From positions 1,550,001 through 1,614,000 of the forward strand of contig NZ_JANUGV010000001.1 of assembly GCF_024753215.1 (NCBI RefSeq): 64,000 bases of DNA. Direction: 5' to 3'. The position numbers and the translations under genes were made by a program. The DNA comes from Massilia solisilvae (GTDB lineage Bacteria > Pseudomonadota > Gammaproteobacteria > Burkholderiales > Burkholderiaceae_D). This document shows, one piece after another, positions 11,086 through 39,442 of this stretch (positions are counted from its first letter, which is position 1; every line of letters begins with the position of its first letter). Under the pieces are notes generated by a model. That model searched no databases, was not told where the DNA came from, and saw nothing but the letters and a program-made list of their open reading frames with translations.

Positions 11086-13827
11086 TCACTTCTCCTGCTT
11101 CTTGAGCAGCGCAATCGCGGCGGCCAGCACCACCGGATAGGCCAGCGCCATCGGCCACATCGCGTGGTACAGGTCGGCCAATCCGAGCGCTTTGTTGAAC
11201 ACCCCGCGGCTAATGTTGAACATGTGGCTGGCCGGGTACAGCTCGCCGATCACCCGCCCCGCGCCCTCGAGCGAGGAAACGGGGTTGATCAGGCCGGAGA
11301 ACTGAATCGCCGGCAGCATGGTGCCGATCAGGGTAAAGAACATGGCGGCAATCTGGCTGCGTGTCAGTGCCGAGGCGAGCAGGCCGATCGCGGTGGTGCC
11401 CAGCACGTACAGCAGCGTGGCCAGCGTCAGCGCGCCGAAGCTGCCGCTGACGGGCACGCCGAACACGGTCACCGCGGCTGCGCACATCAGCAAAAAATTC
11501 AGCATGGCCAGGGCGACGTAGGGCATCTGCTTGCCGATCAAGAATTCGGTGCGCGTGGCCGGCGTGACGTACAGGTTGATGATGGAACCGAGCTCCTTCT
11601 CGCGCACCACGGCCAGCGCGGTCAGCATCGCGGGCAGCATCAGCAGGAGCAGGGGGATGACGGCGGGGACGATCGCAGGCAGGCTGCGCACGTCCGGGTT
11701 GTAGCGAAAGCGCGTCTCCACGGTCGCTGGCATGGCCGGCGTGGGCATGCCGCGTTCGAGCGCCTGTCGCATCAGCCAGTGCTGGTGCAGGCCCTGCACG
11801 TAGCCGGTGATGGTCTCGGCCCGCTGCGGCATGGCGCCATCGACCCAGATCCCGACCTGTGCCTGGCGGCCGTGGGTGAGGTCGCGCGCAAAGCCGGGCG
11901 GGATTTCGACTGCGAGCGACACGTCGCCGCTGCGCATGCGGTGGTCAAGGTCGGCATAGTCGCGCAGCGGCGGGGTTTGTGTGAAGTAGCGCGAACCGGC
12001 GATGTTGAGCACGTAGTCGCGGCTCAATGCGGTCGCGTCGCGGTCCAGTACCGCAAAGCGCAGGTTTTCCACGTCCATGTTGATGCCGTAGCCGATCACG
12101 AACATCAGCAGCAGTGAACCGACCAGCGCCAGGGCGCGGCGGATTTTGTCGCGCTTGAGTTCGAGCGCCTCGCGCCACAGGTAGCTGACCATGCGGCCAA
12201 AGCTGCGCTGCGCTGCGCCATGCCTGGGCGGGGCGGCCGGGGCGACGACGCTTTCCGTCGGGGCCTCCGGCGTGTCGGGTGCGCCGCCAGCCTCGCGCAG
12301 GAAGGCGATGAAAGCATCTTCGAGCGTGGCGGTGCCGCGCGCTGCGACCAGCGCGGACGGCGCATCGCAGGCCAGCACGCGGCCAGCGTGCATCAGCGAG
12401 ATGCGGTCGCAGCGCTCGGCCTCGTTCATGAAGTGGGTGGAAATGAAGATCGTGACCCGGTCCTTGCGCGCCAGGTCGATCATCAGGCGCCAGAAGGCGT
12501 CGCGCGCCAGCGGGTCAACGCCGGAGGTCGGTTCGTCCAGGATCAGCAGTTCGGGCTTGTGCACCATCGCCACCGCCAGCGACAGGCGCTGGCGGATGCC
12601 GAGCGGAACGCGGTCGGGGAGTGCATCGAGCACGTCCTGCAGGTCGAAGCGCTCGGCCATCTCGGCCACCCGCGCGTCGATCTGCGCTTCCGGAACGTGG
12701 AACAGGCGCGCGTGCAGCACCAGGTTCTGGTGCACCGTCAGTTCGCCATACAGCGAGAACGACTGCGACATGTAGCCGACGCGGCGCCGCGTTTCCAGGT
12801 CGCGCGCGTCCACCGGCTGGCCGAACAACAGGGCCTGGCCGCCGCTGGCCGGCAGCAGGCCGGTCAGCATTTTCATGGTGGTGGTCTTGCCGCAGCCGTT
12901 GGAGCCGAGGAAGCCGAAGATCTCGCCGCGCCGGATGCGAAAGCTCACGTGGTCCACGGCGGTGAAGTCGCCGAAACGCATCGTCAGCTCCTTCGCTTCG
13001 ATGGCGATTTCATCCTCGCCGCCGGCAACCATCGGCGGCACGTGCAGCGGCGCGTAGCCGGCGCGCTCCTCTTCCGGCAGCAGGGCGATGAAGGCCTGCT
13101 CCAGCGTGGCGCTGCCGGTGCGCTCGAGCAGTTCGGCGGGCGTGCCGGTCGCCAGCACGCGGCCCGCGTCCATCGCGACCAGCCAGTCGAAACGCATGGC
13201 CTCGTCCATGTAGGCAGTTGCCACCATCACGCTCATGCCCGGGCGCTCGGCGCGGATGCGCGCGATCAGGTCCCAGAACTGGGTGCGCGCCAGCGGATCC
13301 ACCCCGGTGGTCGGCTCGTCCAGGATGAGCAGGTCGGGGTCGTGGATCAGCGCGCAGCACAGGCCGAGCTTCTGCTTCATCCCGCCCGAGAGTTTGCCCG
13401 CCGGCCGGTCGAGGAAGGGGAACAGGCCGGTGCTGCGCGTGAGCTGGTCGATGCGGCGCCGTCGCTCGGGGCCGTCGTGCCCGAACAGGCGCCCGAAGAA
13501 CTGCAGGTTTTCTTCCACCGACAGGGTGGGGTACAGGTTTTTGCCCAGCCCCTGCGGCATGTAGGCGATGCGCGGGCAAACCTGTTCGCGGTGGCGCCGC
13601 TCGGCCATGTCGCCGCCCAGCACCTCGATCCTGCCGTGCTGCATGCGGCGCGCTCCCGACAGCAGGGCGAGCAGGGTGGACTTGCCGACGCCGTCAGGCC
13701 CGATCAGTCCGACCACGCAGCCGGACGGCACCTCCAGCGTCAGCCGGTCCAGCGCCCGGGTCTTGCCGTACTCGATGCTGACGTCTTCCAGCCTGGCGAC
13801 GCAAGCAGGCTGGTTGGCGTGCGTCAT
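11086..13827 (-). CDS. Fused double ABC ATPase and permease, RbbA/YhiH-like
   Basis: 913 residues, matching RbbA (about 910). Two complete ATPase domains: the first has Walker [11 protein letters not shown] (~43-52), signature [11 protein letters not shown] and Walker [13 protein letters not shown]; the second has Walker [15 protein letters not shown] (~300), a degenerate signature ([10 protein letters not shown]) and [12 protein letters not shown]. From ~540 an ABC-2 permease domain follows, with an N-terminal helix, a periplasmic loop containing [14 protein letters not shown] and [26 protein letters not shown]. Likely an inner-membrane exporter of drugs or lipophilic compounds working with the adjacent HlyD and NodT proteins. 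Its start overlaps the hlyD stop (ATGA), indicating translational coupling. Confidence 0.92.
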
Positions 13828-14921
13828 GGCGTTACCTTGGCCGCCACTTCAGCAGGCCATGGTGCTTTCGGGTCCAGGCGGACCCAGGCTACGCCCGGCA
13901 GGCCGGTTTTCACCTGCTGCAGGTGTGCTTCGAGCAGCTTGCGGTCGATCCGGGCCTTGACCCGGAACATCAGCTTCTGGCGTTCGCTGGCGGTTTCCAC
14001 CGTCTTGGGCGTGAACTGGGCGGTGCTGGCTACGTACGATACCCTGGCCGGGATCGCGTATTGGGGCACGGCGTCGAGCACCACGCGCACCTCGGCGCCA
14101 AGGCCCACCCGGCCGGCCACGGTTTCGGGCAGGAAGAAGGTCATGTACACGTCGGCCAGGTCGACGAGGTTGAGCACCTTGCCGCCGGCGCCGAGCACTT
14201 CGCCCGGCTGGGCCACGCGGTACTGCACCCGGCCGGCGCGCGGCGCGATCAGCACCGTATCGGCCAGTTCGGCGTCGATGCGCGCGATGGTTGCGGCGGC
14301 GGCCTTTTCGTTGGCCTGTGCGCTGAGCACCTGGGTACGGGTGGCGTTCACCGCGGCCTGGGCAGCGCGCACCTGGGCCCGCGCGGCGGCCAGCGCGGCC
14401 AGCGTGCCGTTCACCCGGGCGCGGTCGTCGTCCAGCTCCTGGCGCGACGATGCGCCTTCGTTGGCCAGCGTCTCGGAGCGGGCCAGGCGGCGGCGTGCGG
14501 CGTCCAGGTCGCTTTCGCGCTGGCCCACCAGCGCCTGCGCGGCCAGCTGGTCGCTTTCGCGCAGCGTCACTTCGGCGCGCGCGCCTGCCAGCGCGGCGGC
14601 CGCCTGCTGCTGGCGCGCCACCGCTTCCTCGCGCTGGGCCTGCATGCTGCGGGTATCCATCCTGGCGAGGACTTGCCCGGCCTTGACGAACTCGCCTTCC
14701 TGCGCGGTGATCTCGCTGATCCTTCCCGGCACCTTGGTGGCGACGTCAACCTCGGTGGCTTCGATGCGGCCGTTGCCCTTGGCGAAGCCGTCGGTCTTGT
14801 CGCGCTGCGAGAACGGCCCCCAGTTCACGAAGGCCCACGCGGCCAGTGCGGCGACCAGCGCTACCGGCACCCACAACTTCAGTTCTTTTTTCATGGTGTT
14901 GTATTGTAGAAGACTAGTCAT
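13824..14921 (-). CDS. HlyD/EmrA-family membrane fusion protein (YhiI-like)
   Basis: 365 residues. One N-terminal membrane helix ([17 protein letters not shown]), then the barrel-sandwich halves: [18 protein letters not shown] and the closing [20 protein letters not shown]. They flank a long alpha-helical hairpin rich in Ala, Gln and Arg (~80-190), then a beta-barrel domain. It bridges the inner-membrane transporter to the outer-membrane NodT channel. The ATG at 14921 overlaps the stop of the NodT gene (ATGA), so it is preferred; a second ATG at 14894 (MKKELKLW) starts directly before the membrane helix and is the alternative. Confidence 0.9.
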
Positions 14922-16408
14922 CGGATGGCGCCAGCGTCAGTGCCTGGCAAGCGCCGCGCACCGCCGCCGAGCGCGCGGTACAGCGCCACCTGCGCCGACA
15001 GTTGCTGCCTGCGCAGCTGCACCAACTGCTGCTCGGCGCCAAAGCGCTCGCGCTCTGCATCTAGCACCTCGAGGTAGGCGGCGGCGCCGCTCTCGTAGCG
15101 CAGCTGTGCCAGGCGGGCGCGCTCGGCCTGCAGCACCAGCGTGGCGCGGGTTGCCTCGGCCTGGGCGGCCAGTCCGCGCCGCGCGGCGAGCGCGTCGGCC
15201 ACGTCGCGGAAGGCGCCCTGGATCGCCCGCTCGTATTGGGCCACCGCCTCTTCGCTGCGCAGCTGGGCCACCGACAGTTGACCCTTCAGGCGCCCGCCAT
15301 TGAAGATCGGCAGCGCGAGCGAGGGCGCAAAGTTCCAGGCGCGGCTGTCATCGTTGAACAGCTCGTTGAGCGAGGTGCTGGCCGCGCCCGCGGTGGCGGT
15401 GAGCGCGATGCGCGGGAAGAACGCGGCGCGCGCGGCCTGCACGTTGGCGTGGGCGGCACGCAGTTGCTGTTCGGCGGCGGCGATGTCGGCGCGCTCGAGC
15501 AGCAGGTCCGACGGCAGGCCGGTTGCGGGCTCGCGTGCCAACGGCACGGTGCCCAAGCCATCCAGTGCCGGCGCGAGCGTGACCGGGGCGCCGGCCAGCA
15601 GGTCGAGCACCGCACCTTGTTGCGCGCGCGCCTGCTCCAGCTGGGCCACCTGGGCAATCGCCTGCTGTTGCAGCAGCTCGACCTGGGTCAGGTTCAGGCG
15701 CGAGGCGGCGCCCAGTTGGTAGCGGCGCCGGAAGATGCGCACCGTCTCGTCGCGCAGTTCGCGCGTGCGCCGGGCCAGCGCCAGCCGTTCGTCGATCTCG
15801 CGCAGGCCGAGGTAAGCGTCGGCCACCTGAGCGATCAGGCTGACCGTAATGGAACGGCGCGCCTCGTCGCTGGACAGCCAGCTTGCGAGCGCGGATTCGT
15901 TCAGGCTGCGCAGGCGCCCCCACACATCCAGTTCCCATTGCGAGAAGCCGATGCCCGCCTGGAACTGGTTGCCCATGATGGGGCGGCCGATGAAGCTCTG
16001 CGCCGGCGGCACCAGCGCGCGGGTGGCCTGCAGGCTGCCGTTCACCACCGGCAGCTGTTCGGCGCGCTGGATGCCGTAGGCGGCCGCCGCCTCCTGCACG
16101 CGCAGTGCCGCTGTGCGCAGCTCGCGGCTGTTCTCCAGCGCCACGCCAATCACCCGACGCAGCTCGGGGTCGAGGAAGAAGTCCTGCCAGCCGGGCTGCG
16201 CAGCGGCGGCCGTGGCGTCGCTGGCCTGCCCCGGATAGGCGGCGGGCACGGGAAAGCCCGCCGTCGGCGTGGCGCGTGGCAGCGGCGCACACGCGGCAAG
16301 GCTCAGGCAGACCGGCAGGGCCGCCATGGCCGCACGCAAGCGCCGGCGCGACTGGCGGTGCGCCAGGCTCTGTTTTGTTATTTGATCCATCTGTTTTTGT
16401 TCAATCAT
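14918..16408 (-). CDS. Outer-membrane efflux lipoprotein, NodT/OprM family
   Basis: 496 residues. The lipoprotein signal peptide ends LSLAAC, preceded by an Arg-rich n-region. The TolC-like fold appears as two repeats with long helices: QPGWQDFFLDPELRRVIGVALENSRELRTAALRVQEAAAAYGIQRAEQLP and a second half containing LPSDLLLERADIAAAEQQLRAAHANVQAARAAFFPRIALTA, a strongly conserved NodT segment. First gene of the four-gene export operon. The start is uncertain: ATG at 16408, or ATG at 16390 (MDQITKQ); neither has a good Shine-Dalgarno. It lies only 16 bp after the ackA stop, so read-through from the phaC operon is possible. Confidence 0.92.
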   Translation of the reverse strand: MIEQKQMDQITKQSLAHRQSRRRLRAAMAALPVCLSLAACAPLPRATPTAGFPVPAAYPGQASDATAAAAQPGWQDFFLDPELRRVIGVALENSRELRTAALRVQEAAAAYGIQRAEQLPVVNGSLQATRALVPPAQSFIGRPIMGNQFQAGIGFSQWELDVWGRLRSLNESALASWLSSDEARRSITVSLIAQVADAYLGLREIDERLALARRTRELRDETVRIFRRRYQLGAASRLNLTQVELLQQQAIAQVAQLEQARAQQGAVLDLLAGAPVTLAPALDGLGTVPLAREPATGLPSDLLLERADIAAAEQQLRAAHANVQAARAAFFPRIALTATAGAASTSLNELFNDDSRAWNFAPSLALPIFNGGRLKGQLSVAQLRSEEAVAQYERAIQGAFRDVADALAARRGLAAQAEATRATLVLQAERARLAQLRYESGAAAYLEVLDAERERFGAEQQLVQLRRQQLSAQVALYRALGGGARRLPGTDAGAIR

Positions 16409-33360: not shown

Positions 33361-36300
33361 ATGACGACAGAGCAGTTCCGCTTCGGGGAATGGGACGTCA
33401 GTCGCGCCGGCAACAGCCTGCAGCGCGGCGACGAACGGTTCCAGATCGAGCCGCGTGCGATGGACGTGCTGTTCGCGTTATGCGCTCGTGCGAACGAAGT
33501 GATCAGCACCGAAGAGCTCCTGCTCGAATGCTGGGGCAGCACGGTCTACGGCGACAATCCGGTCCACAAGACCATCACCCAGCTGCGCCGGGTGCTGGCG
33601 GACAGCGCGGCCAATCCCTCTTATATACAAACCATTCGCAAGCGCGGGTACCGGGCAATCGCGCCGGTCAGTTTCGGCGATCCTGCGGCCCAGGTGCAGC
33701 CCGGGAGCTGGCGCGATGGTTCCCCGTTCCGCGGCCTGCAGCCGTTCGACGCGGACCATGCGGCCATCTTTTTTGGCCGGGACACCGCGGTCAATGCGCT
33801 GCGCTCCTCGCTGGCCGGGCAGGCGCGCGCGGGGCGGCCGCTGGTGGTGGTGCTGGGGCCGAGCGGCTCGGGCAAGACGTCGCTGATCCTGGCCGGGCTG
33901 GTGCCGGCGCTCATGCGCGAACAACGGGCGGGGGAGCCGCATGCGCTGTCTTCGGCCTTCATCGACCTGGGCGAATTGCACGATGGGCAGGTGTTCGCAG
34001 GGCTGGCCTCGGCCATGCTGGACTGGCAGTTGGGGGACGATGCTGTGTTCGGCGGCGAGAGCGGGGTGTCGCTCGGGCGCTTGTTGCAGGCCGACCCCGA
34101 CGAGGTGGCCGCGCGCATCGACAGGGCGCTGGACGCCCATGGCGCAGGACGGGACGACCGGCTCGTTCTGGTCATCGACCGCTTCGAGGCCTTGTTCACC
34201 CATCCCCAGGTGACCGCAGCCCAGCGCGAGGCGGCGGTGTCGGCGCTCGATACGCTGGCGCGCGCGGGCCGGGTGATGGTGATCATCGCCTGCCGCAACG
34301 ACTTCTATCCGCGTATTGCCGAATTCCCGGCGCTGCTGGAAGGGAAGGCGCAAGGCGCCCATTTCGACGTCGAGCGCCCAAGTCTTGCCGAAATCACGCA
34401 GATGATCCGGCTGCCCGCACTGGCCGCCAACCTGACCTACGGCGTCGATCCGCAAACGCAGGAACGCTGCGACGAGCTGCTGGCGCGCGGCGCCGCCGCA
34501 AGTCCCGATTCGCTGCCGCTGCTGCAGTACACGCTGCAGGAACTGTATCGCCTGCGCAGCCCGGAGGGCGAGCTGTCGGTGGAGGCATACCACCGCATCG
34601 GCGGGCTGGAGGGCGCGATCGGCGCGCGTGCCGAGGAAGTGATTGCCGGGCTGACGGCGGCACAGGTGGCGGCGCTGCCGCGCGTGCTGTCGCTGGTGGT
34701 GACGGTATCTGCGGACAGCGACACGGTGACCAGCCGGCGCGCGCCATGGTCCGCGCTCAGGTCCGACACCGAGCGTGAGCTGGTCAATGCGCTGGTCGAT
34801 GCGCGGCTGTTCCAGAGCGAGCTGGTCGACGGCGAAGGGGGCTTTGGCGTGGCGCATGAGGCGCTGCTGCGGCGCTGGCCGCGCGCGGCCAACTGGATCG
34901 CCTCGCACCGTGGCGGCCTGCAGGTGCGCTCGCGCATTGCGCAGTGGACGGCGCGCTGGGCGGTCGAGGGGCGCAGTTCGGACCTGCTGCTCCCGCCCGG
35001 CAAGCAGCTGGACGAGGCGCGGGAGCTGCTCAGCATGAGCGAATTGTCGCTGTCGGCGCTGGAGCGCGAGCTGATCGACGCTTCAGCGAGGAAAGCCAGG
35101 CGGCGCGATCAGGTCAGGCTGATGGTCATGGTGGCGATCGTCATGCTCGCAATAATCGCCGGCGCCGCGTCACTCGTCGCATATTCCTCAAAGCGTGTCG
35201 CGCAACAGCGACGGGCGGAGGCCGAAGGGCTGATGGGCTTCATGCTTGGCGATTTCGCGGACAAGCTGCGGCCGCTGGGGCGCCTTGATCTGTTGGATTC
35301 GGTGAGCGGGAAAGCGCTCGAATACCTTGCGATCAATGACGACAGCAACGCCGCCTCGCTGACCAACCGAGCGAAGGCACTTCAAGTTATCGCGGAAGTG
35401 AGCTTTGCGCGAAGTGACTCGAAGGCCGCGTTATCGGCGCTTGATTCCGCGCGCGCGATTTTGCTGCATCAATTAGGAGCGAGTCCCCAGAACTGGGAGG
35501 TCGTCAAGGGACTTGGTGCCAACGCGTTCTGGCGCGGGCGAATATATTTGAGCCAGGGGGACCTGGCGCGGGCAGAGGAGCAAATCAAGCTATATCAGCA
35601 GTACAGTGAACGCCTCTACAAGATCGATCCAGAGAACGTCGAAGGCTGGATCGAGCAGTCATATGCGCACACCAATTTGGGGCAGTTCCGTCTCAAGCGC
35701 GGTGACGCTGTTGCTGCCGCCAGCGACTTTGCGGCGTCAATTGCGTTGAAGCAGCGGGCGCTCCTGCGGAGGCCGAGCGATAAAGTGTTGTCCGCGGAAC
35801 TGGCCAACAGTCTTTCGTGGCTGGCGAGCACGCGTGAGTCCTTGGGGGCACTGGATGATGCTCTGAAGCTGTATGACAAAGAAGTCAAGGTCGTGTCCCA
35901 GCTTTATGAGAGCTCCCCAAGTGATTCGTTGTGGGCTAAGAACACCGCAGTCGCCCTGCAGCGCCGAGGCTGGCTCAAGGCGATGATGGGGCAGACCAAA
36001 GAAGGGGAAGCTGACCTCGCGCAGGCCGAACAATTGTTAAGCGCCGTGGTGATACGGGAGCCGAACCACCGGGTGTGGAAGGTTCTTCTGGCGGGCGTTG
36101 AGCTGAACCGTCTGCGTCTTCAGTTAACTCACGCAGGCCGCTTAGTGCTTCCTGCATTGCAAACAGCTGTCGAGAACGCCAGCAAACTTGTTGTGCTGAG
36201 TCCGGACTCGCGTGAGTCGGCCCTAGCTCTTGCAAGTGCGTATCAATACATTGGTATCGTACTACTAGAGGTCGGGCGGGATGAAGAGGCGCGTACAGTC

Positions 36301-36663
36301 CTTTCCAAGAGTTTAGAGAGGCTGCAAGCGCTTTTCGCTAACAACCCTGGCGAAGTCCGTTATGCCGGCGATCTAGCGCAAACAATGGTGCTCCTTAGTC
36401 AAGCATATGCCGGGCTCGGCAATCCTGTTGATGCAAAGCGAAGCTGCTCCTCCGCACTGGACGTACTTGGACAGATATCCGTGCGCTCGGACTACCGTCT
36501 GTTGGACCCTTTTGTCCGGGCACACCTTTGTCTCGGTAATGTCTCGGCAGCAGTTGCTGGGCACGCTCGCCTCGCGTCGATCGGTTACCACGAGGCTTCG
36601 TACAGCCGTTTTTTTTCAAGCCACCAGAAGATGAGGGAGTCATTAGCTAATGTCCGACACTAA
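33361..36663 (+). CDS. Winged-helix (OmpR/CadC-type) nSTAND NTPase with membrane helix and TPR region
   Basis: 1100 residues; GGAGAAG lies directly before the ATG. Residues 1-105 are a trans_reg_C winged helix (FRFGEWDVSRAGNSL, IEPRAMDVLFALCARANEVISTEEL, GDNPVHKTITQLRRVLADS, YIQTIRKRGYRAIA). About 120-470 form an nSTAND1-type NTPase: SPFRGLQPFDADHAAIFFGRD, Walker A LGPSGSGKTSL (~178), Walker B-like LVLVIDRFEALFT, and GVAHEALLRRWPRA. About 580-605 is a membrane helix (VRLMVMVAIVMLAIIAGAASLVAYS). About 620-1100 is TPR-like. The 3' third is visibly lower in GC and uses codons rare in the first half. Predicted role: a signal-gated, membrane-tethered transcription regulator. The 134-residue gene overlaps its end by 14 nt. 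Confidence 0.85.
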   Translation: MTTEQFRFGEWDVSRAGNSLQRGDERFQIEPRAMDVLFALCARANEVISTEELLLECWGSTVYGDNPVHKTITQLRRVLADSAANPSYIQTIRKRGYRAIAPVSFGDPAAQVQPGSWRDGSPFRGLQPFDADHAAIFFGRDTAVNALRSSLAGQARAGRPLVVVLGPSGSGKTSLILAGLVPALMREQRAGEPHALSSAFIDLGELHDGQVFAGLASAMLDWQLGDDAVFGGESGVSLGRLLQADPDEVAARIDRALDAHGAGRDDRLVLVIDRFEALFTHPQVTAAQREAAVSALDTLARAGRVMVIIACRNDFYPRIAEFPALLEGKAQGAHFDVERPSLAEITQMIRLPALAANLTYGVDPQTQERCDELLARGAAASPDSLPLLQYTLQELYRLRSPEGELSVEAYHRIGGLEGAIGARAEEVIAGLTAAQVAALPRVLSLVVTVSADSDTVTSRRAPWSALRSDTERELVNALVDARLFQSELVDGEGGFGVAHEALLRRWPRAANWIASHRGGLQVRSRIAQWTARWAVEGRSSDLLLPPGKQLDEARELLSMSELSLSALERELIDASARKARRRDQVRLMVMVAIVMLAIIAGAASLVAYSSKRVAQQRRAEAEGLMGFMLGDFADKLRPLGRLDLLDSVSGKALEYLAINDDSNAASLTNRAKALQVIAEVSFARSDSKAALSALDSARAILLHQLGASPQNWEVVKGLGANAFWRGRIYLSQGDLARAEEQIKLYQQYSERLYKIDPENVEGWIEQSYAHTNLGQFRLKRGDAVAAASDFAASIALKQRALLRRPSDKVLSAELANSLSWLASTRESLGALDDALKLYDKEVKVVSQLYESSPSDSLWAKNTAVALQRRGWLKAMMGQTKEGEADLAQAEQLLSAVVIREPNHRVWKVLLAGVELNRLRLQLTHAGRLVLPALQTAVENASKLVVLSPDSRESALALASAYQYIGIVLLEVGRDEEARTVLSKSLERLQALFANNPGEVRYAGDLAQTMVLLSQAYAGLGNPVDAKRSCSSALDVLGQISVRSDYRLLDPFVRAHLCLGNVSAAVAGHARLASIGYHEASYSRFFSSHQKMRESLANVRH

Positions 36664-37054
36664 CAATCCGAATTCGACCTCCACGGTCGCGGCACCATCA
36701 TTTCACAATATTACTGTGGTCGTTGTGCCGACGCCTGATGGCAGCGGTAATGCCGGCGGCGGTAAGTGGAAAGTAACCTGTTCACCGTACTCCTGTCCCG
36801 TGTTCACCGGCGATGCCATTCTGAACTACCAGCTGGTGGCACCGACACCCTCGGGTATTGTGTTCGCGGGTTATGAGGCTTGCGCACCGCTCCCAGGGCG
36901 TGAGTTAAGCCGCCCGTCAATTTCCGTCGACGGCAAAATGATGACCTTTAGCGACCGAAACTCAAAGGGCGAGACGATCCTTGTGACGCTTCGCTTTAAG
37001 GATATCATGGAAATTCTATATGATCCTGAGATTCCAAACGATGGCATTCGTTGA
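36650..37054 (+). CDS. 134-residue protein coupled to the STAND regulator; tail matches the peptide N-termini
   Basis: 134 residues, starting inside the last codons of the STAND gene, with GAGGGAG upstream. A Ser/Asn/Thr-rich N-terminus is followed by a beta-rich domain (FHNITVVVVPTP, GKWKVTCSPYSCPVFTGDAILNYQLV, PSISVDGKMMTFSDRNSKGETILVTLRFKDIMEI). It ends DPEIPNDGIR. No signal peptide, no membrane helix, no catalytic motif. It vaguely recalls the small DP-EP proteins, but I cannot confirm this. Its C-terminal PEIPNDG is nearly the same as residues 2-8 of the first two 55-residue peptides (PEVPNDG). Base composition is clearly lower in GC than housekeeping neighbours. Confidence 0.7.
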   Translation: MSDTNNPNSTSTVAAPSFHNITVVVVPTPDGSGNAGGGKWKVTCSPYSCPVFTGDAILNYQLVAPTPSGIVFAGYEACAPLPGRELSRPSISVDGKMMTFSDRNSKGETILVTLRFKDIMEILYDPEIPNDGIR

Positions 37055-37125
37055 TCTGTACGAGCGAGTGTTTAAACAATCTGAGAGCAGCAAGAAAAGC
37101 AGTCCAAAACTGAGAGGAGAAGAAT

Positions 37126-37293
37126 ATGCCAGAAGTTCCGAACGATGGAACGCATTTGACTAGCGAAACTGCGCCGGTGATCGACGTGACAGATAGCGCG
37201 TCGGTGTTTGCCGCACAACCCACCGAAATACAAACAGACCCGACCGAGGCTGAGCTGATAGGCGTGCCGATCGCGCCGGCGGCAGCCGGCTAA
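37126..37293 (+). CDS. 55-residue acidic peptide 1 of a tandem family
   Basis: Starts MPEVPNDGTHLTS, ends EAELIGVPIAPAAAG; exactly 55 residues. A strong ribosome binding site GAGAGGAGAAGAAT precedes the ATG. No Lys, Arg, Cys or Trp; many Asp, Glu, Thr, Ala and Pro. Most similar to peptide 2: both share N-terminal PEVPNDG, LTS at 11-13, AP.I at 16-19, and TDP.EAELIG / ADP.EAELIG near the end. No signal peptide or GG leader cleavage site. 71 bp after the 134-residue gene. Function unknown. Confidence 0.75.
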   Translation: MPEVPNDGTHLTSETAPVIDVTDSASVFAAQPTEIQTDPTEAELIGVPIAPAAAG

Positions 37294-37416
37294 GTGAACA
37301 GGGCCAAGTTATCGGTGAGTGCAGGTGGCGCTGTGGGTACCTACGTTTGAGGCTAGCCGCAGCCTGCCCCCTTGAATGATTGGGCGGTAAGAAAAGTAAC
37401 TTAAAGGGAGAAGAAG

Positions 37417-37584
37417 ATGCCAGAAGTGCCAAATGATGGAGTGCTTTTGACTAGTGCAGCTGCGCCAGTGATCGCGGCGACAGTTAGCGCACCAGCGCTT
37501 GCCGTGCAAGCCGTCGAAACGCAGGCAGATCCGATTGAGGCTGAGCTAATCGGCCTTTCGCTTGTTCCACTCGCAGGCGGATAA
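37417..37584 (+). CDS. 55-residue acidic peptide 2 of the tandem family
   Basis: Starts MPEVPNDGVLLTS, ends EAELIGLSLVPLAGG; exactly 55 residues, no Lys or Arg. AAAGGGAGAAGAAG precedes the ATG. The first 24 nt of coding sequence are nearly the same as in peptide 1, differing mostly at third positions (GTTCCGAACGATGGA versus GTGCCAAATGATGGA), the pattern expected under protein-level selection. More hydrophobic than peptide 1 in its middle (APVIAATVSAPALAVQAVE). It is separated from peptide 1 by 123 bp, the largest gap in the array, in which I see no further ORF of the family. Confidence 0.75.
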   Translation: MPEVPNDGVLLTSAAAPVIAATVSAPALAVQAVETQADPIEAELIGLSLVPLAGG

Positions 37585-37659
37585 GCACTGCGGTAGTTAT
37601 CTCGGCGTCAGGCATGTAACGCTATGCAGCACTAACCAATTGTTTTAAGGAGAAATGAA

Positions 37660-37827
37660 ATGCCGGAATTACCAAACGACCCTCAGCCTGGCATCATCAG
37701 CCCAACTACAACTGTCCAGGAAGCAGTAGTGCAGGATGCAATTTTGCAGTTCGTGCCGGTTTGGGAGGGGGGGGCAGCCAGCGTCGACTGCTCCGATGCA
37801 ACACTTGTCGGGGTACCGACCAGTTAG
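37660..37827 (+). CDS. 55-residue acidic peptide 3 of the tandem family
   Basis: Starts MPELPNDPQPGIISP, ends SDATLVGVPTS; exactly 55 residues, no Lys or Arg. TAAGGAGAAATGAA lies before the ATG. It belongs with peptides 4 and 5: the N-terminus is MP(E/D)(L/V)PN(D/E)P.PGI(I/V)SP and the C-terminus (A)(T/V)LVGVPT(S/T). The middle is variable (TTTVQEAVVQDAILQFVPVWEGGAASVDC). It contains the only Cys and the only Trp of the five peptides, and a run of eight or more G in the DNA (GGAGGGGGGGG region) that could be prone to slippage. Confidence 0.75.
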   Translation: MPELPNDPQPGIISPTTTVQEAVVQDAILQFVPVWEGGAASVDCSDATLVGVPTS

Positions 37828-37883
37828 TGCGCCAGTTGGGAAGTATTTTCTATCTTGTCTATATTTCACTAAGGAGAACTTAA

Positions 37884-38051
37884 ATGCCAGAAGTGCCAAA
37901 TGAACCGATCCCGGGAATCGTGAGTCCGGTTTCCACGGTCTCGGAAGCAGCCATTTATGACACCACTCTGGTGTCGGCTCCCCTTGATGGCGGCCAAACG
38001 ATTGACACTGAGGCCGTTGCTGCCACGCTAGTCGGAGTGCCGACCACTTAG
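37884..38051 (+). CDS. 55-residue acidic peptide 4 of the tandem family
   Basis: Starts MPEVPNEPIPGIVSP, ends VAATLVGVPTT; exactly 55 residues, no Lys or Arg. TAAGGAGAACTTAA precedes the ATG. It has the PEVPN start of peptides 1-2 and the PGIVSP and LVGVP motifs of peptides 3 and 5, so it bridges the two subtypes. Variable middle: VSTVSEAAIYDTTLVSAPLDGGQTIDTE. Gap of 56 bp to peptide 3 and 68 bp to peptide 5. Confidence 0.75.
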   Translation: MPEVPNEPIPGIVSPVSTVSEAAIYDTTLVSAPLDGGQTIDTEAVAATLVGVPTT

Positions 38052-38119
38052 CAAGGCGGAGGCTGCGACCTGGTGCAGTTTTTCTAACAATATTCACGAA
38101 TATAAGGGTGAAACACATA

Positions 38120-38287
38120 ATGCCAGACCTACCAAACGATCCGATACCGGGCATCGTTAGCCCGGATGTCACGATCGCGGACGCAAGTAGCGCGAACCCT
38201 GCCTTCGGATCCGATCTCATCATTGAGCAGTTGATGACACCCGGCGAAGATTCCGCTGTGGTACTTGTCGGCGTGCCGACCAGCTAA
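38120..38287 (+). CDS. 55-residue acidic peptide 5 of the tandem family
   Basis: Starts MPDLPNDPIPGIVSP, ends VVLVGVPTS; exactly 55 residues, no Lys or Arg. TAAGGGTGAAACACATA lies before the ATG, a weaker ribosome site than those of the other four. Last member; the following 183 bp up to rnz contain no sixth copy. Variable middle: VTIADASSANPAFGSDLIIEQLMTPGEDS. Confidence 0.72.
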   Translation: MPDLPNDPIPGIVSPDVTIADASSANPAFGSDLIIEQLMTPGEDSAVVLVGVPTS

Positions 38288-38470
38288 GATGCATTGCGCT
38301 GTGCGTCCGGTTTTGTGAGCAGTACCACCTCATCGACGTGGACGCAAAAGTGAACCAGCACTGTTGGTTGCACAGCAGTGCTGATTCCTCGGTAATATCC
38401 TACCCCTCCCGCTGCGCCGGTTCGCGCCGTGTTTTCAGCCTTCACGCGTCGGATCGTCGATAATCCCCGG

Positions 38471-39442
38471 ATGGAACTCGAATTCCTCGGCACCTCATCC
38501 GGCACGCCCACCAAGACCCGCAACGTCTCCGCGCTCGCGCTGCGTTCGCCGCTGGCGGCCCGCTGGTACCTGGTCGATTGCGGCGAAGGGACGCAGCACC
38601 GCCTGCTGCACACCAGCCTGTCGTTGATGGGCCTGCGTGCCATTTTCATCACGCATGTGCACGGCGACCATTGCTACGGCCTGCCGGGTTTGCTGGCGAG
38701 CGCTGGCTTGCTCAACCGCACGGACGAACTGCTGCTGGTCGGGCCCGCAGCCATTGCTGCTTTCGTCCAGGGCGTGATGGAAACGACGCAGCTCGCGCTG
38801 CCGTACCCAGTCGCCTTCCTGCCGGTCGAACAGGGCATCCCGGACGGCCTGCTGCCGGACTTCGAGGTGCGCGTCACGGCGCTGTCGCACCGCGTTCCCT
38901 CGTACGCCTATACCTTTATCGAATCCAAACTTGAGCGCAAACTCGACGCGGGCCGGCTCAGGGCCGATGGCGTGCCGCGCGGACCCGCATGGGGCGAGTT
39001 GCAGCGCGGGGGCGATGTGATGCTGCCCGACGGGCGAGTTCTGCGTGCGCAGGACTACCTTCAAGCGCCGCGCAAGCCGCGCAAGATCATCGTCGGCGGC
39101 GACAACGACACGCCTGAACTACTGGCGGACCAAGCTGGCGGCGCCGACGTGCTGGTACACGAGGCGACCTACACCGAGGACATCCTGGAAAAGGTGGGGC
39201 CGGCACCGCAGCACAGCACGGCGCGCCGAACAGCGCGTTTCGCTGCCGACGCGAACATTCCGAACCTCGTCCTGACCCATTTCAGCCCCCGCTACCAACA
39301 GCACAACGGGCCGCAGACGATCGCCGACGTCGAGCGCGAGGCGCGCGCGGCCTATCGCGGCAACCTGTTCCTGGCAAACGACCTGGACAGGTTCAGCCTG
39401 GACCGGCAAGGGCGCCTGTCGCGTATTGCCCCAGCCGGATGA
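38471..39442 (+). CDS. rnz: Ribonuclease Z
   Basis: 323 residues, starting MELEFLGTSSGTPTKTRNVSALAL, the conserved RNase Z N-terminus. Metallo-beta-lactamase motif THVHGDHCYGLPGLLASA carries the zinc ligands; later IIVGGDNDTPEL and DVLVHEATYTEDI (Asp and His ligands), and NLVLTHFSPRYQ. It is the tRNA 3'-end endonuclease. The short form (~320 residues) is normal for bacteria. The ATG at 38471 is chosen over the upstream in-frame ATG at 38429 because the family begins there. It returns to the high-GC codon use of the core genome, marking the right edge of the accessory region. Confidence 0.95.
   Translation: MELEFLGTSSGTPTKTRNVSALALRSPLAARWYLVDCGEGTQHRLLHTSLSLMGLRAIFITHVHGDHCYGLPGLLASAGLLNRTDELLLVGPAAIAAFVQGVMETTQLALPYPVAFLPVEQGIPDGLLPDFEVRVTALSHRVPSYAYTFIESKLERKLDAGRLRADGVPRGPAWGELQRGGDVMLPDGRVLRAQDYLQAPRKPRKIIVGGDNDTPELLADQAGGADVLVHEATYTEDILEKVGPAPQHSTARRTARFAADANIPNLVLTHFSPRYQQHNGPQTIADVEREARAAYRGNLFLANDLDRFSLDRQGRLSRIAPAG

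Follow-up and report, generated by a model that had tools for sequence, protein, structure and literature searches.

Five small peptide genes behind a STAND-TPR regulator resemble the predicted self-released tail of a neighbouring DP-EP-like protein

In a 64,000-nucleotide stretch of the Massilia solisilvae genome (contig NZ_JANUGV010000001.1, positions 1,550,001 to 1,614,000, forward strand; hereafter the window), five genes for 55-residue peptides lie behind a 134-residue protein resembling the self-cleaving DP-EP family (hereafter the DP protein) and a regulator that combines a winged helix-turn-helix (wHTH), an nSTAND1 NTPase and a C-terminal TPR domain (Table 1). On balance, we read the peptides as near-copies of the tail that the DP protein would release by cutting itself, and as likely ligands of the TPR regulator. 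The computed basis of this reading is selection on the peptide genes, their operon linkage, the likeness of peptides and tail, covariation of the two across relatives, linkage to C39 exporters, the TPR fold of the regulator and its predicted transmembrane helix.

Table 1. Features of the regulator, DP protein and peptide array, in window coordinates; a slash marks the predicted cleavage or Met-removal site here and in the text.
Feature	Coordinates	Strand	Evidence or remarks
Regulator: Trans_reg_C winged helix, nSTAND1 NTPase, predicted transmembrane helix at residues ~588-606, C-terminal TPR	33361..36663	+	Pfam, hydropathy, AlphaFold, Foldseek
134-residue DP-EP-like beta-sandwich protein, predicted self-cleavage at Asp125-Pro126	36650..37054	+	profile, Foldseek, alignment
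C-terminal tail PEIPNDGIR, 9 residues, which D/P cleavage would free	37025..37051	+	sequence, alignment; cleavage inferred from SO1698
Peptide 1 gene	37126..37293	+	55 residues, start M/PEVPNDG
Peptide 2 gene	37417..37584	+	55 residues, start M/PEVPNDG
Peptide 3 gene	37660..37827	+	55 residues, start M/PELPNDP
Peptide 4 gene	37884..38051	+	55 residues, start M/PEVPNEP
Peptide 5 gene	38120..38287	+	55 residues, start M/PDLPNDP
Terminator-like hairpin after peptide 5	38288..38307	+	weak; region has 3 such sites vs 1.8 expected

The five open reading frames (ORFs) all begin with ATG and run head to tail at spacings of 56-123 nt, exactly the consecutive 55-residue frames that a first-pass annotation, made from the letters alone, had described at 37126-38287. 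Its view that each has a ribosome site of its own holds for genes 1-4 (GGAG/AAGGAG, spacer 6-7 nt) and less well for gene 5, where the site is weaker (AAGGG, 11 nt) and an alternative GTG start at 38108 would give a peptide of 59 residues. The conserved ends and divergent middles that it pointed out are evident in pairwise identities of 60% for peptides 1 and 2, 49% for 3 and 4 and 32% for 1 and 4; the fixed length is a property of the window and not of the closest relative found, genome G301, whose two such peptides have 55 and 57 residues. Across window and G301 peptides the ratio of nonsynonymous to synonymous substitution rates (dN/dS) is 0.19-0.50 in eight of nine pairs, the ninth being saturated, rather than near 1, the value that the annotation had named as speaking against genuine genes; these ratios are rough, synonymous distances being large, and that of the upstream 134-residue protein is 0.10. 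Furthermore, the 275 residues of the five peptides include 37 Asp or Glu and not one Lys or Arg, and the frames contain no internal stop; the counts for the two remaining forward frames and an antisense frame are 56, 56 and 48 Lys or Arg and 13, 16 and 4 stops. The dN/dS values together with these in-frame counts rule out chance ORFs and agree with the earlier judgement that the genes are real and selected.

None of the five peptides has a significant match in Pfam, NCBIfam or PHROGs (best Pfam E 0.12), in line with the earlier remark that no such family was known, and PADLOC returned nothing for the two peptides tested or for the DP protein. Homologues with the conserved start, which the annotation had proposed to look for, do exist, G301 carrying two that begin M-PEVPNDG. 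Searching 392 genomes of the family with profile A7 recovered the window's own genome (G000) and G301, plus three matches at E 0.0016-0.016, two of which begin at model position 5 while the third (G107, 2-34) contains two stops. Peptide 4 searched against the same genomes found its own copies and four weak matches (E 0.02-0.04), and peptide 2, searched against 62 genomes, found its own copies, G301 (E 1.9e-14) and two weak matches (E 0.017-0.037); weak matches of profile A4 in G102, G142 and G203 (E 0.017-0.039) were taken as chance.

The annotation had placed the array behind a STAND-type regulator, which is indeed found upstream, but it missed the 134-residue gene that overlaps the 3' end of the regulator gene and directly precedes the peptides. 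The encoded protein has no Pfam match at E<=5; a profile of 25 relatives (A3), however, matches the Protein Data Bank (PDB) chains of SO1698 at E 3.3e-5, and with the AlphaFold model (mean predicted local distance difference test score, pLDDT, 75.8) all 12 Foldseek matches to the PDB at E<=0.001 are SO1698, at TM-scores of 0.57-0.62 by query. Two relatives (loci L045 and L057) match the Pfam DP-EP family (PF08985) at E 5.8e-5 and 2.7e-4, below its gathering score, and all 25 sequences of the A3 alignment keep D125, P126 and N130 of the motif DPx[VI]xN. PF08985 was formerly DUF1888, and its Shewanella member SO1698 is said, in work attributed to Osipiuk in 2012, to cleave its own chain at the Asp116-Pro117 bond. 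The deposited SO1698 chains are 119 residues long for the wild type, Y26F, K98A, P115A and Q118A, and 128 residues for D37A, S114A, D116A and P117A; because wild type and Q118A share one sequence, the 119-residue chain must end before residue 118, and the two lengths form the pattern expected if the last nine residues are cut off. By analogy with SO1698, the one DP-EP protein known to us to do so, the window's DP protein would cut itself at Asp125-Pro126. A study of vesicles (PMC11655445), which cites the 2012 work for a self-cleaving endopeptidase of S. oneidensis, found this enzyme to perform poorly as a release sequence.

Several DP proteins have additional features. In five loci (L045, L046, L047, L048 and L051) the tail motif recurs about 20 residues beyond its first occurrence (e.g. 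..DPEISNEPPPQLMLHATLMPEIGNEPPPGN). Two DP-EP-like proteins stand behind a single regulator in L110 (7309-8233), L221, L227 and L232, the second one in L110 having, by eye, a Sec-like signal sequence at its start.

The tail of the window's DP protein, D/PEIPNDGIR, closely resembles the five peptide starts, M-P[ED][VL]PN[DE][GP], and in G301 a tail DPEVPNDGVH accompanies two peptides that share its PEVPNDG. A Met that precedes Pro is normally removed, so that peptides and tail would share nearly the same N-terminus, Pro-(Glu/Asp)-(Val/Leu)-Pro-Asn. Mimicry of the neighbouring DP protein's tail by the peptides is well supported.

The regulator and the DP protein are linked well beyond the window. 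Among the 392 genomes of the family, 53 (the window's own included) match the 134-residue protein, and a regulator of the window type lies adjacent upstream on the same strand in all 59 loci that hold a DP protein or a PF08985 member, namely 53 from the family (52 other genomes) and six from other orders of the class, the latter found with PF08985 in six of 349 genomes of the phylum; the few large gaps between regulator and DP gene among these loci are apparent only, as the frames run on. Starting instead from the regulator, we surveyed the best 80 of 299 loci, which from their record titles we take to belong to alpha-, beta- and gammaproteobacteria. By an automatic rule, with only part of the loci read by eye, a protein with a DP..N tail of median length 9 residues comes next after the regulator in 70 of the 80. 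The other ten comprise three with a double-Gly precursor instead, three with altered tails (L192, L207, L211), three whose DP protein the rule missed (L179, L223, L224) and one where none was found (L159). Small ORFs bearing the motif occur in nine of the 80 regulator loci, including that of G301 (L153).

Except in G301, these relatives carry the motif C-terminally in short ORFs (47-64 residues in the 13 aligned), behind a leader of the type L..E...V.G[GAS], giving the form leader-G[GAS]/P[EQD][VIL]xN.., as in VAGG/PQVQNDPQV of G353 and VVGA/PEVQNEPEPD of G106. Cut after the double Gly, such a precursor would release a core whose start is an N-terminal Pro stretch like that of the tail. The regular expression for such precursors has 20 matches and none in reversed ORFs. 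The precursors lie near an exporter that joins a C39 peptidase to an ATP-binding cassette (ABC) transporter, and near HlyD; within the 80 loci the C39 exporter is present in six of eight with a precursor vs none of 72 without (Fisher 9e-8), and in one of the two exceptions, G366, a different contig holds motif precursors next to a C39 gene. Four of the eight precursor loci hold just one precursor. The first-pass annotation had suggested precursors of modified peptides among other roles, and double-Gly precursors accompanied by a C39 exporter are indeed present in relatives; by eye no modification enzyme was recognised among the neighbouring ORFs of the window, although no search aimed at one was run. 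The leader expression finds nothing in 36601-38400 of the window, where the motif is N-terminal instead; the five C39 matches in G000 all lie away from the window, no precursor with a PEVPN core was seen in the 3-kb loci around them, and no C39 gene lies within 9 kb on either side of the G301 regulator (L153). In G289 (L108:4999-5362), double-Gly-like ORFs carry the motif-like stretches YPIVDNNPPG and FPQIENDPPG 13-16 residues after the double Gly.

In the three loci with a precursor in place of the tail match (L172, L174, L188), an ORF of the form G[GA]/PE[LI]GHD and HlyD/C39 genes come after the regulator, and no DP gene was found in between, as if the precursor could replace it. G390, where a precursor likewise takes the place of the DP gene, has no exact match to DPE[LIMFV]GHD. 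L174 is on the same contig as L151.

A parallel arrangement occurs in six genomes (G187, G241, G313, G390, G290 and G089; loci L145, L146, L147, L148, L150 and L152), in which a Ser/Thr kinase with a TPR part is followed by a different DP protein and then by at least one precursor, with C39/HlyD genes in L145-L147 and L150. The kinase of G187 was identified by Pfam and the others were judged by sequence; four of the DP-ending proteins from these loci were run against Pfam, with no significant match. Here the cores again follow the tails of their own loci: L145 pairs a tail DPEVDVEIGGG with a core GG/PEVDVESGG, another locus a tail DPECEVGAGA with GG/PEVEVDNG and GG/PEFEVGNGQ, and further loci a tail DPESSVGGSIGLG with a core PESSVGG and a tail DPETEVGGPGTTPK with GG/PEAEVGGTGTIPK. 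Similarly, locus L163 of Pseudoduganella namucuonensis combines an unusual tail, DPDVNNDPEPQ, with the cores PDVNNDPQPV, PDVENEPDPR, PDLDNDPPPT and PEVVNDPDPV.

A covariation test scored at motif positions 3-6 comprised 69 cores in 11 clusters of loci. Identity between tail and core of the same locus averages 2.56 of 4 vs 1.16 after shuffling, a value reached in none of 100,000 shuffles; shuffling within regulator type raises the mean to 1.88, and 79 of 100,000 reach the observed likeness. By type alone, the counts are 899 of 100,000 for STAND and 8,405 of 100,000 for kinase loci. The test is anchored on P[EQD], which favours likeness, and does not correct for relatedness of loci; residue 2, limited to E/Q/D, is excluded from the score, and G301 and the window, as well as three g32 genomes, are merged into single clusters. 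The cores come from a regular expression and include two evident chance ORFs (PDHVPP, PDCIIE), whereas the seven M/P starts were entered by hand, the M/P expression having caught six of them plus ten chance ORFs, left out, of which two begin P[EQD] (PDAEIT, PEMVPP). Also left out were G289 with its odd cores, the tail-less loci L172, L174 and L188, the precursors on the second contig of G366 and a G106 ORF with the core AEIAND.

The regulator has predicted features of a membrane-bound receptor. The AlphaFold model of residues 621-1100 is an all-helical superhelix (pLDDT 88.7), for which the best PDB matches in Foldseek (TM-scores 0.17-0.51 by query) are mostly TPR proteins, e.g. O-GlcNAc transferase and LGN in partner complexes. 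All 81 regulators have a hydrophobic 19-mer (Kyte-Doolittle >=1.6) between the NTPase and TPR parts, and 79 of 81 keep a Cys pair (C1029/C1057 in the window). Twelve regulators checked more closely have a hydropathy peak in 11 cases and an N-side flank that is more positive in ten and equal in one, charges favouring a cytosolic N-terminus; each of four TPR kinases checked also has one modest transmembrane peak (1.7-1.9). These data suggest a cytosolic output combined with a periplasmic, perhaps disulfide-bonded, TPR receptor.

We propose a model in which the basic module would obtain its ligand through self-cleavage of the DP protein at Asp-Pro, and in which extra genes would add copies of the tail, by the M/P route in the window and G301 and elsewhere by the double-Gly route, where cleavage in the C39 peptidase exporter would make the same kind of N-terminal Pro end. 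The free peptide would then bind the TPR superhelix with which the wHTH-nSTAND1 regulator, predicted to span the membrane, ends, with the Ser/Thr kinase taking the regulator's place in the parallel version, and peptide dose would set transcription. Self-cleavage in this subfamily, removal of the start Met, the topology, the binding and the signalling are the inferred parts of the model. Ligands of the STAND protein, one of the roles offered in the first-pass annotation, is thus also our best guess from the sequences, and we speculate that the absence of Lys and Arg would spare the peptides side reactions with an activated Asp. More tentatively still, the loci might represent a new class of proteobacterial signalling in which a self-cleaved tail is the signal, dedicated genes add copies of it by the M/P and double-Gly routes, and membrane-spanning TPR receptors have a STAND transcription factor or a Ser/Thr kinase as output. 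If the model is correct, a self-cleaving protein of so far obscure purpose gains a testable role, a STAND-TPR regulator conserved in alpha-, beta- and gammaproteobacteria gains candidate ligands and receptors, and a Gram-negative peptide-TPR language built on autoproteolysis is suggested.

A number of observations weigh against this model. The positions of the catalytic residues D37, K98 and S114 of SO1698 are occupied by other residues in the window protein, by alignments that are uncertain at 17% identity, and Asp is found at the D37 position in one of seven PF08985 proteins aligned; as the D37A and S114A entries of SO1698 are among those with an uncut chain, self-cleavage of the window protein is a presumption. 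Although the receptor domain seems to face the periplasm, neither a leader nor a nearby C39 gene accompanies the window peptides and, by a crude rule, just two of 70 DP proteins have a signal-like start; the model does not account for the route of a signal-less DP protein or of leaderless 55-residue peptides to such a domain. The N-terminal M/P layout was found in only two of the 392 genomes, and small ORFs with the motif accompany only six of the 59 DP loci, most of which lack an array; none was seen in the six PF08985 loci from other orders. The covariation is weak for the kinase type alone (permutation p 0.08), the own tail is the best match in only seven of 11 clusters, with cores closer to the tail of another locus in G353, G106, G366 and D. 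radicis, and in G290 two residues lie between the double Gly and the PE of the motif. Finally, tail mimicry does not explain the conserved C-terminal L[IV]G block of the peptides.

That block speaks for a view of the peptides as independent small proteins whose divergent middles carry the function, their shared N-terminus being a mere relic of a duplicated 3' end of the DP gene, and the second tail copy found about 20 residues on in several DP proteins, some reading L-M-PEIGNEPPP, offers an evident route to such ORFs. We nevertheless consider this improbable, since the motif is kept while the middles diverge and since otherwise dissimilar double-Gly precursors bear a similar one. An alternative with a better claim, though still unlikely, is that the peptides act on the DP-EP protein itself, either replacing the cleaved strand or, through attack of their N-terminal Pro on the activated Asp125, becoming ligated as 54-residue peptides in place of the 9-residue tail. 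The shared motif would then be the leaving group, which fits the likeness of tail and peptides equally well as a ligand does. Lacking Lys, the peptides would have a sole amine, that of the N-terminal Pro, once the Met is gone, and Asp-Pro cleavage of the FrpC type is described, in a passage of PMC7078468, as proceeding via an Asp anhydride open to amines. Such an account leaves unexplained the double-Gly precursors with their exporter, the precursors in the DP gene's place in three loci and the fixed linkage to the regulator.

A function in competition or defence, with the arrays as diversified secreted effectors and the DP protein as a decoy or immunity protein, seems to us marginally less probable than the duplication relic. 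Diversified multi-copy arrays with double-Gly leaders and C39/HlyD exporters do resemble bacteriocin clusters; the predicted mature parts, however, are mostly about 8-14 residues long and copy the neighbour's tail, most DP loci have no array, and the window peptides have no leader. The L145 kinase (12774-14942) of the parallel system matches PADLOC mad6 at E 5.8e-70 as well as many PD-T4-6 models, a possible pointer to defence, but kinase domains match these models easily. For the STAND gene, PADLOC gave weak P-loop matches to mad3/mad8 at E about 1e-4.

Both C39 peptides and DP-EP proteins that cleave themselves belong to known types, and several described systems come close to the ligand model. 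The window protein has the fold, size and C-terminal DPx[VI]xN of SO1698, and in six genomes from other orders a PF08985 member likewise stands behind a wHTH-nSTAND1-TPR gene; it departs from SO1698 in the three residues named above, and those six loci differ from the window in having no array. Peptide-TPR signalling is familiar from the RRNPP regulators (Rap/Rgg/PlcR/NprR/PrgX), with which the present system shares short linear peptides and a TPR-domain regulator as putative receptor. The window regulator possesses both a TPR superhelix and a wHTH, with STAND and transmembrane parts lying between, and thus has a wHTH-STAND-TM-TPR (or, in the parallel version, kinase-TM-TPR) layout unlike the cytosolic HTH-TPR proteins of RRNPP; the system is also proteobacterial, its receptor apparently periplasmic and its ligand proposed to come also from Asp-Pro self-cleavage. 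Related loci share the L..E...V.G[GAS] leader, C39 ABC transporter and HlyD of double-Gly systems (PCAT, NHLP-type), and NHLM transporter models match their transporters below cut-offs; they differ in cores of mostly 8-14 residues copying a neighbour's tail, and the window peptides in being leaderless. The FrpC self-processing module (clip-and-link, NeissLock) has a fold different from DP-EP, and to our knowledge it has no free tail-copy peptides; it differs further in its Ca2+ trigger. What it has in common with the present proposal is the Asp-Pro cleavage chemistry, as outlined in part of PMC7078468. In open-licence literature we found no text that connects the DP-EP family with peptide genes or with this regulator, and no title on TPR or double-Gly signalling that names such an arrangement; peptide genes that copy a self-cleaved tail and are tied to a TPR regulator are, as far as our searches show, undescribed there.

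Candidate origins on mobile elements were rejected, blastn of 36650-38290 giving no match in plasmids and the 134-residue protein none in phages. Downstream of the array and outside the system, the gene at 38429-39442 has, by eye, the look of a ribonuclease Z or metallo-beta-lactamase fold.
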